Shown here: positions 1 to 31,691 of the stretch, piece by piece
How positions within the stretch are numbered: position 1 is the stretch's first letter
How the letters are laid out: each line of letters begins with the position of its first letter
Assembly: GCF_025465275.1 (NCBI RefSeq)
Contig: NZ_JAODNK010000012.1
Location: 1-64,000, forward strand
DNA length: 64,000 bases
Origin: Nocardia sp.
Lineage (GTDB): Bacteria; Actinomycetota; Actinomycetes; Mycobacteriales; Mycobacteriaceae
Direction of reading: 5' to 3'
Program-made: the position numbers and the translations under genes
The notes under the pieces: generated by a model
What the model was told of the DNA's origin: nothing
Seen by the model: only the letters and a program-made list of their open reading frames with translations
Databases searched by the model: none

Positions 1-3000
1 CAGGTGTTCGCCTCCGGTGAGGCGCTGCCCGGCAGCACCGCGCAGAAGGTCCGCGAGCTGACCGGTGCGCGGGTGCACAATCTGTACGGCCCGACCGAGG
101 CCGCGGTCGACGTCACCTATCACGAGGTCACCGACGCGGACATCAGCTCGGTGCCGATCGGTGCGCCGGTCTTCAATACCCAGGTGTACGTGCTGGATTC
201 GCGACTGAACCCGGTTCCGGTGGGTGTCGCGGGCGAGCTGTATCTCGCGGGTGTGCAGCTGGCGCGCGGGTATGTGGCGCGGCCGGATCTGACCGCCGAT
301 CGGTTCGTGGCCGATCCGTTCGAAGCGCGGGGAGGCGGAGCGATGGGTGCGCGCATGTATCGCACCGGCGATCTGGTGAAGTGGGATGCGGGCGGTGAGC
401 TGGAGTATCTGGGCCGCACCGACTTCCAGGTGAAGTTGCGTGGTCTGCGTATCGAGCTGGGCGAGATCGAGGCGGCGCTGCTGGCGCAGCCGGGTGTCTC
501 GCAGGCCGTGGTCGTGGTGCGCGCCGATGCGCACACCGGTGATCAGCTCATCGGCTACGTGGTCGCCGATGCCGACGGCGAGGAGCTGAAAACCGCTCTC
601 GCCCAGTCGCTTCCGGCCTACATGGTGCCGTCCGCGCTGCTGGTGCTCGACGAGTTCCCGCTCAATGCCTCGGGCAAGCTGGACCGTAAGGCGCTGCCCG
701 CACCGGTTTTCGAGGCCAAGATGTTCCGGGCGCCGTCGACTCCCATCGAGGAGATTGTCGCCGGGGTCTTCGCCGAACTGCTCGGTGCGGACCGAGTCGG
801 CGCCGACGACGACTTCTTCGAGCTGGGCGGTAATTCGCTCATCGCCACCCGGGCCGTGGCCCGGGTCAACGAGGCGCTCGATACCGATGTCGCGGTGCGC
901 GAACTGTTCGAGACCTCCACGGTCGCCGGGCTGGCCGCTCGCGTGGTGCCCGGTGCGGGCGTGGGCGCGCGGCCGCCGCTGGTCGCGGGGGAGCGCCCGG
1001 CGCGGGTGCCGCTGTCACTGGCGCAGCAGCGCATGTGGGTACTGAACCAGTTCGATCCGGAGTCGGCGGCCTACAACATCCCCATGGCCATCCGCCTGCA
1101 GGGCGCCCTCGATGTACCCGCGCTGCGGCAGGCGGTCGAGGATGTGCTGACCAGGCACGAGGTGCTGCGCACGTGGTATCCGGAGTCCGCTCCGGGCGCG
1201 GCGGCGTACCAGGAGATCCTGTCGGTGGCCGAGGTGCTGCCGGATGGTCTCGAGGTGGAGCGGGCCGACGACATCGGCGCGCGGGTGGCCGAGCTGGTCT
1301 TCACCGGATTCGATGTGGCGCAGCATGTTCCGCTGCGGGTGCGATTGATCACCGGCGATGATCCGGACGACTACCTGCTGGTGCTGGTCGCTCATCACAT
1401 TGCGGCCGACGGCGCCTCCATGGCTCCGCTGGCGCGCGATCTCGTGGCCGCCTACCTGGCACGCAGTGCGGGCCGGGAGATCGGCTGGTCGCCGCTGTCG
1501 GTGCAGTACGCCGATTTCGCGGTGTGGCAGCGTGCCGTGGTCGGCGTCGACGAGGACGAGAACTCGCTGGCCGCACAGCAATTGGCGTTCTGGCGCGAGC
1601 AGCTGGCGGACCTTCCGGCCCCGAGTCTGCCGCTGGATCGTCCGCGTACCGCGGCATCCTCCACGGCGGGCGCGTTCGTGGACTTCCGGCTGCCCGCCGA
1701 AGTGCACGTTGCGCTGAATCGTATTGCGCGGCAGCACAATGCCTCGCTGTTCATGGTGGTGCACGCCGCCGTCGCGGCCTGGCTGGCGCGGCTGTCGGGT
1801 AGTACCGATGTGGTCATCGGCACCGCCGTCGCCGGTCGCGGTGAGCGGGCTCTCGACGATCTGGTCGGCATGTTCGTCAATACCTTGACGCTGCGCACCC
1901 CGGTCGACCTCGACGCGCCGTTCGATGTGCTGGTCGCGCAGGCCCGGGAGACCGACCTGAATGCCTTCGGCAATGCCGATGTGCCGTTCGAGCGGGTTTC
2001 CGAGGTGGCGGCCGCCGGTCGCGGCGCCGCGAATCCGCTACTGCAGGTGGTGCTTTCGCTGCAGAACACCGAGACCCCGGTGCTGGAACTGCCGGGGCTG
2101 CGGGTGTCGGCCATCGATACCGAGCTGGCCGCGGCCAAGTTCGATCTGCAGATCAGCATGGAGCCGCGGTCCGGCGCCGATGGCGCGCTCGGCGTGCTGG
2201 ACGTGATCTTCGCCTATGCCACAGACCTTTTCGACGAGGCGACCATTGATTCGTTCGGCCAGGTGCTGGAGCGGATCCTGCTGGCCGTGGCCGCCGACCC
2301 GCACGCGGTGGTCGGGGATATCGAACTGTTCGGCGCACCGGGTGCCGGGGTGGCCGCCGCACCGCAGTCCGCTCCCGAACCGGCCGCTCCGGCCGCCCGG
2401 GGCGCCGCGCTGACGCAGGTGCTGACAACCGCGGTCGAGGACGACCCGGACGGTCCGGCGGTGGTGTGGGGCGAGGAGTCGGTGACGTATCAGGAACTCG
2501 ACGCCCGCTCCTCGCGGCTGGCCCGGGTCCTGATCGCGCACGGCAGCGGACCGGGCGCGGGTGTCGTGGTGAGTGTGCCGCGCAGCGTGGATCAGGCCGT
2601 GGCGATCTGGGCGGTGCTCAAGACCGGCGCCATGCTGGTGCCGTTCGTGGCAGCCGACGCACCGGGTCTGGATGTCAAGGTGGGTATCACTGTGAGTAAC
2701 GCGCCATCCACGGCGGCGGGCATCGATTGGCTGGTGCTCGACGATCCGGAAGTGGTGGCGCAGGTAGCGGCCGAATCCGCTCGCCCGGTCACCTATGCCA
2801 GTCGAACGCGCGCCCTGCGCGGTGTCGACCCGGCGTACATTTCGGCCGGCGCCGTCCTCACCTATGACGCACTGGCCGCCGCTGTCGACCGTGCTCGCGC
2901 CGCCACCGAGCTCACCTTCGAGTCCCGAACCTTCCAGCACGGCTCACCGGATTCCGCGTTGGCCCTGGTGGAGCTGGTCGCCGCCGGTGCGGTGGGAGCC

Positions 3001-29500: not shown

Positions 29501-31691
29501 GCCGAAGGTATTCGACGGGCAGATGGACTTGTTCTCGGCCGAGCAGGGGCGCGGCGACGATCACCCGCACTCGCCCGACGACTGGCGGGGCTTCGTCAGC
29601 GGATCCATTACCGATCACGTCGTGCCGATCACGCATCAGCTGCTGACCACGGCGGAGGCATATGCCGTCATCGGGCCGCAGCTTGCCGCACTGCTCGAGC
29701 GCGAAAGTGCGCCTGCCGCACGCGAAGAAGCCGCAGGCGAAGCGGTCGAGGACGCCGACTGGGCCACCACCCAGGTGCTGCCGATCATCAATTTCGACGC
29801 ACCGCCCGCAGGACTGAAGCTGCGTGCGGCCGACGAGGCGTACGTGGCCACGGAATCCGACACGGGCGCGGGTTATGACTCGGCCTCGGATTACGTTGCC
29901 GCCGACGACTTCCCGGCTGCCGATGCGGAAGCGTTCGTCGACAAGCTCTTCTCCGGCTTCGACACCGGCGAGATCGCCGAATCGACGCCGGGCACCTCTG
30001 CCGCCGAAGCAGCCTCGGCCGCAAGGGAAACCGCAGACTCCGCCGCAGGTGCAGGTCCGGATGCCTTCGCCGAGGAAGCGCAGCAGGTTTCGGCCGAGGG
30101 ATCACGGCGGGTTGCGGGAGGCGGGGCTCGGGACGCCCTCGGCGAGGGATCGCCGGTCGCTGACGACGAGGGATCTCCCGACGCTTATGCCGGAGGATCG
30201 GGGGACGCTGTCGTCGGGGGATCGGGGGACGCTGTCGATGCGGCAGCGCAGGAGAGTCCCGATGCGGCAGCGCAGGAGGGTCCCGATGCGGTAGTCCCGG
30301 AAGCTGCCGAGCCGGATGCCGCGGCTCCGGCCACGCCGCCGATCATGGGACCGCGACTCACCGCCGTGGGCAAGGTGTCTCCGCTGCCTGCGGGCGCGGT
30401 GAGCCTGCTCGAGGTCGAGCCGTCCGGACTCTGGGTCCGCGCGATCACCCTCGATATCGCCGCCGATGTCTCCGGCTCCCGGGTGCGGCGATCGGTGCGC
30501 ACCCTGCTCGACCGGCACCCCGCACTCTGGTCGCGACTGCGCCGCGACGGCGAAGCGGCCGTCATGGACATTCCGGCACAGGCGAATTCGAGCGATGCCA
30601 TGGTCTGGCAGCTGGATCCCTCGGTCGAGGCGGTGGGCGATCCCATCGAAGCGGTCATCCACGCCGCCGCGGCGGAGCTGGATCCGGAGAAGGGCCGCAA
30701 TATTCGGTTCGTGCTCATGGCCGGCGCACAGGCCGACCCGGGCCTCGATCCCGTCGATCGCCCTGCGGCGGTGCTGGTCGCGGTCGCGAACGGGCTGGTG
30801 GTGGACGACACCTCGTGGCGCACCATTATCGAAGACCTGACGGCCTCCTGGTCCGGTGGACATGCCACGCCGCCCAGCGCGGACGCGCATCCGGTCGGCA
30901 TTGCGCAGGGGCTCGCGGACCGCGCGGTCGCCGCCCCGACGGTCATCGAATTGGAGTGGTGGCGCGCCTCTTTGACCTCGGCCACCGAGGGCCGGGATCC
31001 GGCGGAGGTGTTCGGCGACAGTGAGGGGCCGATCGCCCGCGGCCGGGTATCGGTCTCCATCACCGGTGAAGGCGCGGCGGCCGTCGATACCGTGGCTCGC
31101 CGCTACGACGCCACCATCGACGAGGTGCTGCTCGGTGCGCTCGCCGTCACCCTGCTCGACGACAGCGGCGAATCGGTCCGCCGCGCACTGGGTTCGGTGG
31201 TGCAGCTGGTCGCCGACGGCCGGGTGCCGGGCGATCCCGCCGGGCATCGCACCGTGGGCGCGTTCAGCACCCCGTACCCCTTCGCGCTGCGGGTATACGG
31301 CGTGGATTTCGAGGAAGTGCGGCGCGGCGGCCAGGCCGCCGGATCGGTGCTCGAGCAGATCCGCGACCGCCGCCGCGACGTGCCCTCGCAGGGTGTCGGC
31401 TTCGGTCTGCTGCAGCATCTGAACCCCGACACAGCGGCCGCAATCGCCGGACTTCCGGTGGGTCGCATCGGTTTCCGCTACCGTGATCTGCGACCCGCCC
31501 GGGTGTATCCGGAGCCGGTCGCCGACGACCTCTATCTGGACGTCACGGTGGACACCACACAGGACGGTCTCGTCGCCCGCTTCGACTTCGCGGGCGCGGT
31601 GCTCGACCTGGAGCAGATCAAGCGACTCGTCGAGGGCTGGGTACAGGCCCTGGGCGGACTCGCCGAGCACGGCCGCGAGACCACTCCGTAA
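17502..31691 (+). CDS. Four-module NRPS: A-T-C-A-T-C-A-T-C-A-T-TE-E* (paralogue)
   Basis: This 4729-residue NRPS is collinear with the preceding gene. Carrier serines are near 564 (LGVDSI), 1631, 2692 and 3756. C active sites are HHILLDG near 772, HHIAGDG near 1816 and HHISSDG near 2879. TE Ser is near 3895 (GYSLGG), and the post-TE pseudo-domain has NGLVVDD near 4430. By-eye specificity residues are A1 D-A-Y-V-V-V-G-I-W, A2 D-I-W-H-F-A-W-V-V (identical to A2 of the twin), A3 D-V-W-S-L-A-L-V-H (Ser-like) and A4 D-P-L-L-S-G-A-I-I (near-identical to A4 of the twin). A3 differs strongly from A3 of the twin and instead resembles the partial A domain of the first NRPS, so this module was exchanged. 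The linker between TE and the pseudo-domain is longer than in the twin and contains 8-residue repeats. Like its twin it lacks a C domain before A1. The ATG is set by the ATGA overlap with the micro-ORF. Confidence 0.95.
30195..30285 (+). repeat. 24-bp imperfect tandem repeats in the TE/E* linker
   Basis: Two copies of a 24-bp unit start at 30195 and 30219 (GGSGDAV(V/D)), followed by two copies of another starting at 30237 and 30261 (DAAAQE(S/G)P). Together they encode 8-residue Gly/Ser/Ala/Asp/Glu-rich repeats in a disordered, acidic linker. The twin NRPS lacks them, so the linker has expanded by slippage. Confidence 0.85.
30345..31688 (+). other. Post-TE epimerization/X-like pseudo-domain of the third NRPS
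   Basis: Counterpart of the pseudo-domain at 15901-17260, starting at the shared [19 protein letters not shown]. It has the same NGLVVDD substitution for HHxxx[28 protein letters not shown] and [15 protein letters not shown]. Preservation of the same changed active-site residues and of the whole fold in both copies suggests a retained non-catalytic role. Confidence 0.75.

Follow-up and report, generated by a model that had tools for sequence, protein, structure and literature searches.

Can one nonribosomal peptide synthetase (NRPS) subunit feed two terminating subunits? The question is raised by the first 64,000 bases of contig NZ_JAODNK010000012.1 (C225) from Nocardia sp. (NCBI RefSeq assembly GCF_025465275.1; genome G000, 9.67 Mb), which are called the window here. 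An earlier note on this DNA had proposed that one upstream line, ending in a first NRPS (P1), serves the two NRPSs encoded behind it (P2 and P3). NRPS lines are read as linear with one terminator each, an assumption that underlies product prediction and the counting of clusters. We prefer the reading that a single donor, P1, feeds both terminating lines, P2 and P3, which would yield two related peptides; its probability is about 0.6, and a fork in the window strain is likely.

Three open reading frames (ORFs) were taken from window positions 1-31691: 1-3216, which is open at its 5' end; 3350-17263, for which ATG 3452 is the likely start; and 17502-31691. Domains (A, adenylation; T, carrier; C, condensation; E, epimerization; TE, thioesterase) were placed by Pfam, by condensation-domain positions, and by our own profiles. 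A* and E* denote the unusual A- and E-type domains described below, and N-tail denotes the N-terminal tail of a protein.

1-3216, + strand: P1, donor NRPS truncated by the contig edge, C-terminal part present
1003-2343, + strand: terminal C domain of P1, with an intact HHIAADG motif
2368-3213, + strand: A*, an acidic adenylation N-core at the C-terminus, lacking P-loop and GPTE, putative docking platform
3452-17263, + strand: P2, first acceptor/terminator twin, A-T-C-A-T-C-A-T-C-A-T-TE-E*, start probably at ATG 3452
3452-3520, + strand: N-tail of P2, Arg-rich, acceptor-type, 23 residues
14909-15676, + strand: thioesterase of P2
16001-17002, + strand: E* of P2, HH replaced (ANGLVVDD)
17502-31691, + strand: P3, second acceptor/terminator twin, layout as P2, 70% identical to P2
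17502-17570, + strand: N-tail of P3, Arg-rich, acceptor-type, 23 residues
28980-29753, + strand: thioesterase of P3
30429-31430, + strand: E* of P3, HH replaced (ANGLVVDD)

The layout of the twins stands as it had been read before: Pfam and our own profiles agree that both genes after the first NRPS gene begin with an A domain, carry their own TE, and share the A-T-C-A-T-C-A-T-C-A-T-TE-E* order. The visible part of P1 reads A(cut)-T-C-A* and lacks the N-terminus, as the window starts at base 1 of the contig. The start of the line can probably be traced to another contig of the genome. A piece at the edge of C83 (G000:C83:3-2072, - strand) matches residues 1-690 of the complete donor of a second genome, G011 (two contigs), at 97% identity and is likely the start of P1, with approximately 690 residues missing between C83 and C225. 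The G011 donor is an open frame of 2,492 aa with the layout A-T-C-A-T-C-A*, which the whole P1 probably shares. One donor followed by two twins is also found in G011, G073, and G129. Since the identical layout recurs in these genomes, it is neither due to chance nor an assembly artefact. Each branch has five C domains for six A domains. Thus, a free-standing C domain is not needed, and none is missing that could serve one twin only, a case considered in the earlier note.

In the proposed mechanism, the donor would load and join two residues. The terminal C domain of P1 would then join the dipeptide to the amino acid held on the module 1 carrier of P2 or of P3, while A* probably fills the place of the missing A domain beside this C domain and receives the acceptor. 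P2 and P3 would each add three more residues after module 1 and release the product via their own TE. Hence, each branch would combine residues 1 and 2 from the donor with four residues from P2 or P3, giving two related hexapeptides.

The handover from the terminal C domain of P1 to the first carrier of a protein starting with A-T is well supported by related sequences, namely by the junctions in Nocardia, a linear line in G191, and natural fusions in three genomes; this part of the earlier proposal can be upheld. The named genomes hold 372 relatives of A*, of which the best 80 of 372 were used. They represent 79 distinct loci, all in Nocardia, from which 77 A*-ended donors were called (4 loci gave none). 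An NRPS ORF follows the donor in 74/77 cases, and 72/74 of these ORFs start with an A domain. The two exceptions are L094, where an E* remnant follows, and L131, where the frame begins inside an A domain. The terminal C domain keeps HHxxxDG in 68/77 named donors; the other nine comprise three cut by contig edges, four with HHxxxDA, and two with no HH motif. The same motif is kept in 32/34 A*-ended ORFs of 25 Nocardia clusters that were laid out, i.e., the window and 24 others chosen mostly for strong A* matches in long contigs and not at random.

Outside the genus, A* sits at the C-terminus of the ORF, directly after a C domain, in 10/10 loci opened, and an A-starting ORF follows in nine of them (exception: G172). 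The G191 line consists of a cut protein of 6977 aa ending in C-A*, a second of 5569 aa also ending in C-A*, and a third of 4580 aa ending in TE; two C-A*|A-T junctions thus precede a single TE. Hence, C-A*|A-T is a recurrent inter-subunit junction of the family and not an accident of Nocardia.

In three genomes, donor and acceptor are fused into one ORF (G112, 5594 aa; G083, 5593 aa; G082, 5618 aa). The first approximately 2150 residues are 72-73% identical to the donors of G110 and G087 and colinear with them to the end of the terminal C domain. The last approximately 3440 residues are 62% identical to the TE protein G110|13479-23906 over its full length. A* is absent from the fused ORFs, an acceptor-tail relic, RPNRIPVSRDITLPQLL, stands at the seam, and the N-tail is donor-type in 3/3. 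The A domain behind the seam has the entry code DALVIGAVM in 3/3, the same as A1 of P2. The three fusions are alike and may go back to a single event. They fix the order as donor, then acceptor.

Two further variants were observed. Longer donors of approximately 3100-3200 aa (L103, L121, L125, L138, and others) have the layout A-T-E-C-C*-A-T-C-A* and the same donor tail. Another C-A*|A-T break in the window genome (L193/L194, G000:C135) has a different acceptor N-terminus, which is not Arg-rich; perhaps this is a second junction type.

What is A*? The earlier note had taken the end of P1 as a C domain followed by a decayed A domain. The C-terminal A remnant was found again, but it is not decaying: this was ruled out by conservation, purifying selection, and the predicted fold. 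A* is a truncated adenylation N-core of approximately 280 residues. The A-core fold is present, and neither the TSGSTG P-loop nor GPTE occurs in any named A* (0/77). The AF2 model has a pLDDT of 91.8 and a pTM of 0.92; for the C-A* model, the pTM is 0.58, and the orientation of C to A* was, therefore, not used. An alignment of 37 sequences gives a mean column identity of 57%. A* is under purifying selection at an omega of 0.31, compared with 0.08 for the rest of P1. It is matched at E <= 1e-50 in 138/148 Nocardia genomes; the family search gave A* matches at E <= 1e-60 in 40/201 genomes and 7/31 genera (own genus included). The search of the 148 Nocardia genomes found no close A* in G002, G035, and G077. 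G002 is the only one of these three that was opened. The second protein of its contig has a decayed first A-T module, as seen in L234 (G002:C361, 12886-15999), a TE-side protein with a first A domain that has no P-loop and a first T domain that is replaced by a Pro/Ala/Ser-rich stretch. In the second donors G094|20796-28169 and G038|16866-24347, A* is shorter and the terminal C domain reads QHIIADG, not HHxxxDG.

A* is likely a docking platform which receives the first module of the acceptor, perhaps via the Arg-rich tail. Its mean net charge of -21.2 (n = 50), compared with -10.1 for the matching part of full A domains (n = 317), is suggestive of an electrostatic role, no more. Alternatively, A* could be a functionless scar of gene fission, left behind by a cut that separated the donor within a duplicated A domain. 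The faster evolution of A* compared with the rest of P1 would fit a scar, and so would the fused ORFs that do without it. However, A* is missing exactly where donor and acceptor are fused, as expected of a docking part, and the conserved alignment, the confident model, and the purifying selection speak against a scar. We regard a scar as unlikely. The system makes it testable whether a truncated adenylation domain can act as a docking domain.

The acceptors, in turn, share an N-terminal signature. N-tails were scored leave-one-out after motif anchoring, which leaves the unanchored G012|361 outside the 47 scored TE proteins. All 32 donors (32/32) have a donor-type tail (MDTARRSARGNRRRRSGSPLFGQLL type) and 47/47 scored TE proteins an acceptor-type tail, be they first, second, or third after the donor. 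P3 scores more acceptor-like than P2. Among the 72 A-starting ORFs behind named donors, the tail is acceptor-type in 63 and donor-type in 3, which are donor-donor tandems; the remaining 6 could not be anchored by the script and are acceptor-like by eye. A basic tail as such was ruled out as a mark of acceptors only: R+K per 22 tail residues is 7.1 in acceptors, 6.9 in donors, and 1.8 in 25 internal linkers. The tails of donors and stand-alone starters are Arg-rich as well; only the tail class separates them from acceptors.

The entry A domain gives a second mark. Positions of the specificity code were set by motif anchors and not by structure alignment, and the class D[AG][LFMY] was defined after the codes had been seen. 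With these limits, the class covers the entry A domain of 48/48 TE proteins, compared with 0/32 for donor A1, 0/32 for donor A2, and 15/148 for internal A domains of TE proteins.

The next point is the number of terminators. G028 was counted with one TE, as its second protein is cut by the fetched stretch, and G072 has broken frames. The count leaves out G012 and G052 (TE proteins whose donor lies beyond the fetched stretch), the fused G112, G083, and G082, G090, G002, orphan donors, and the upstream stand-alone TE protein of G043. Counted in this way, TE proteins outnumber donors in 15 of the 25 clusters; the numbers are the same in 7, and donors prevail in 3. A canonical linear NRPS would have a single terminating TE protein for each donor; this is exceeded in 15/25, but G000 and G011 have a second, orphan donor elsewhere. 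Among the matches listed, G073, G129, G023, G062, G111, G041, G043, G044, and G110 have a single A* each, but the same set of matches misses the second donors of G094 and G038.

Selection points in the same direction. P2 is 91% identical to its G011 ortholog (omega 0.17) and P3 is 95% identical to its own (omega 0.13), while the twins are 70% alike. Since the orthologs are closer than the twins, the twin pair is, judging from these identities, older than the species split, and both members are maintained. Counterparts of both twins stand in G011, G073, and G129.

A fork is, therefore, supported by the shared N-tail class, the shared entry-A class, the surplus of TE proteins over donors, and the conservation of both twins, and we infer that one donor serves the two twins and that the strain makes both peptides. 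The claim of one upstream line feeding two terminating lines holds to this extent; it is weakened by the orphan donor, which leaves room for one-to-one pairing. If the fork is real, a small conserved donor with one to three interchangeable terminators would amount to natural combinatorial biosynthesis across the genus. It would account for the differences in size seen in a known orphan cluster and offer a new C|A break point for joining NRPS parts.

Several findings weigh against a shared donor. Donors outnumber terminators in G001, G141, and G072, and genome-wide, G000 and G011 have two donors for two terminators. A* evolves faster than the rest of P1, and donor N-tails are as Arg-rich as acceptor tails. 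An N-terminal A-T is also a normal way to start an NRPS line, and stand-alone A-T...TE NRPSs exist in the genus. Because the entry codes of P2 and P3 differ, one donor C domain would have to accept two different residues. Finally, other branch pairs share little past the entry code (positions alike per successive code: G120 9, 3, 5, 3; G134 9, 3, 1, 3; G053 9, 1; G110 5, 3, 5).

The alternative that survives best, distinctly unlikely as it is, holds that there are two separate lines: P1 feeds the adjacent P2 only, and P3 starts by itself with its A-T and makes a tetrapeptide. It draws on the fact that an N-terminal A-T is a normal initiation module and on the self-contained A-T...TE NRPSs of the genus (C113, G112|15105, G083|5356, and G043|6688), and it corresponds to the second possibility considered for the matching cluster by Komaki 2014 (PMC4035055). 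These four starters, however, look different from P3. Their tail is donor-type in 3/4 by score (that of C113 scored +7.7 but is one residue out of register and reads RRSTRGNRRRAR), and the entry code occurs in 0/4, while the TE proteins of the clusters are acceptor-tailed in 47/47 and carry the entry code in 48/48. In addition, P3, which should be the starter, scores as the more acceptor-like of the twins.

One-to-one pairing in trans is improbable. Here, P1 would serve one twin and a second donor the other, with no donor shared. Such a donor was found in G011, at C1:8.26 Mb (near 8260181-8267700), with the layout A-T-C-A-T-C-A*, and no terminator was found within the 55 kb examined around it. 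Its counterpart in G000 is L026 (C9, 13767-19271, - strand), with a likely start on C89. The orphan has no stop in 1825 aligned codons and an omega of 0.25, i.e., it is under purifying selection, and together with P1 it makes two donors for two terminators in both genomes. Among the matches listed for G011, the twins are the only full matches to the acceptor tail. The orphan may feed the twins in trans, either serving both alongside P1 or pairing with just one of them, and in the latter case, the fork would be undone in the window strain. We set our confidence in the shared donor a little lower because the orphan could serve one twin. Against exclusive pairs, both donors end in the same C-A* type, the tail of the G011 orphan is donor-type, and the tails of the twins belong to one and the same acceptor type, so nothing is seen that keeps pairs apart. 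Moreover, other clusters with one A* among the matches listed have two or three terminators.

It is possible, and we put it forward tentatively, that any A*-ended donor can feed any acceptor-tailed terminator, in which case the lines would be combinatorial and A* would represent a new NRPS docking class at the C|A break. Two donors and two terminators in G000, as in G011, would then give up to four hexapeptides, and the A* docking domain would derive from a shortened relative of the domain with which it pairs.

A degenerate fork, in which the twins are never expressed or functional together and the idle one is a reserve copy or a gene being lost, is quite improbable. In N. acidivorans (L094/G126:C41:2271-3032), all that is left of the first twin is a 254-aa E* remnant between the donor and the second twin, a branch loss that leaves one twin, and the decayed first A-T module in the TE-side protein of G002 could be read likewise. 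In contrast, the twins of the window are both under purifying selection, and both have counterparts in three genomes; neither looks dead, so the silent twin considered in the earlier note is not apparent. One long line, in which the chain moves on from P2 to P3 without being released by the first TE (the first possibility in Komaki 2014, with an 11-residue peptide there), is very improbable, since P2 ends in T-TE-E* and P3 starts with A, with no C domain between them, and E* has lost its HH, although the genes are adjacent and co-directional with 238 bases from the stop of P2 to the start of P3.

With one donor feeding both twins, what would the two peptides be? The codes are DALVIGAVM, DIWFFAWV-, DQEIGGSIG, and DPLLTGAII for P2 and DAYIVVGIW, DIWFFAWV-, DVWFLALVH, and DPLLSGAII for P3; the donor codes of G011 are DVLIVAGIL and DVWFFSLVD. 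Between the twins, the A2 codes agree as read (one position is a gap in both) and the A4 codes at 8/9 positions, while the N-cores are 87% identical for A2, 42% for A3, and 79% for A4. The two hexapeptides are predicted to have residues 1, 2, 4, and 6 in common, with differences at 3 and 5. For the entry residue, 2/9 code positions are alike in the window (also in G011) and 8/9 in G073 and G129. In G023, G062, G043, and G044, the branches agree in the first three codes (8-9 of 9) and differ at the ends, with 6 versus 7 residues in all.

The E-type domain after the TE, E*, does not have the HHxxxD motif, which reads ANGLVVDD in P2 and P3; replacement of HH, mostly by the same ANGLVVDD, is common to most E* relatives examined. 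E* is the only E-like domain in each twin and is possibly a recruitment domain like the X domain. Elsewhere in the genus (internal in G132, G044, G111, and others), E* relatives stand between T and C or after TE. Module 1 of both twins (5012-6664 and 19074-20726) has a T domain of the LGxDSI kind and no E domain between T and the first C domain, which we take to be of the type that follows an E domain. For a dual E/C reading of this C domain, the motif HHxxxxGD was not seen in the N-terminal stretch inspected.

By module numbers and neighbours, and not by sequence, the cluster is probably cluster #4 of Komaki 2014 (PMC4035055), equal to GCF 6 of Mannle 2020 (PMC7413640). It shares with them the conservation across Nocardia, the variable module number, and the two TE genes. 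In its passages on cluster #4, Komaki 2014 describes it as conserved in seven strains studied and partial in N. otitidiscaviarum, with two TE domains and a 'Ser/Thr-rich' peptide, and offers one long peptide or two separate ones as readings. The 4+7 aa of N. asteroides given there match the layout D-TE(2)-D-TE(5) of G094/G038 (D, donor), and the 6 aa + 5 aa of N. brasiliensis match D-TE(4)-TE(5) of G023/G062. Unlike here, these passages propose no fork and do not mention a truncated A domain. Mannle 2020 describes GCF 6 as a large NRPS line that is conserved in Nocardia and varies from 7 to 13 modules, without explaining the variation in the GCF 6 part of that paper. Five neighbours are named there: a metallopeptidase, an esterase, an enoyl-CoA dehydratase, a nitropropane dioxygenase, and an epimerase. 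The first three were looked for here, and all three were found. The metallopeptidase (M23) is on C83, which likely joins C225, and the other two lie in the window:

31763-32851, + strand: putative esterase (PF00756), directly downstream of P3, compare the GCF 6 neighbourhood of Mannle 2020
34391-35185, - strand: enoyl-CoA hydratase family protein, belonging to a GCF 6-type neighbourhood

The docking literature offers partial parallels. In its sections on DHD of polyketide synthases (PKSs) and on COM/PAX of NRPSs, the review PMC9113145 lists no docking class at a C|A break, and neither a fork nor a pseudo-A docking domain was found for this cluster in the literature searched, mainly open-access papers. 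Like the DHD of trans-AT PKSs, A* is appended to the C-terminus of the upstream subunit where a module is split between two proteins, here at C|A. The DHD contacts the first domain of the next subunit, as A* may do. The DHD has approximately 70 residues, is largely disordered alone, and sits at KS|DH (PMC9113145), while A* has approximately 280 residues and is predicted to be well folded; unlike the DHD, it is a shortened relative of the first domain in its partner. COM and PAX are likewise terminal pieces that pair NRPS subunits, and COM is promiscuous. However, the review describes COM for E/C junctions and PAX for a junction of PCP and C (PMC9113145), while the break here is between C and A. 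COM-type docking, with a donor helix after E or T and a hand motif on an N-terminal C domain of the acceptor, does not apply to a donor ending in C-A* and an acceptor starting with A.

A similar logic is seen in the PKS-NRPS lines for depsipeptide histone deacetylase (HDAC) inhibitors, in which, as here, a conserved front meets variable backs via a conserved docking contact; the relevant part of that paper reports noncognate crosstalk and proposes a strain with two back ends as an intermediate (PMC13324335). For those lines, the coexistence of two back ends is proposed as a stage in evolution, one of the two having since decayed. Here, in contrast, two or three terminators with full domains stand side by side in many species. 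Further condensation-domain genes lie on the same contig 40 kb downstream, outside the window (C225:71241-81318).

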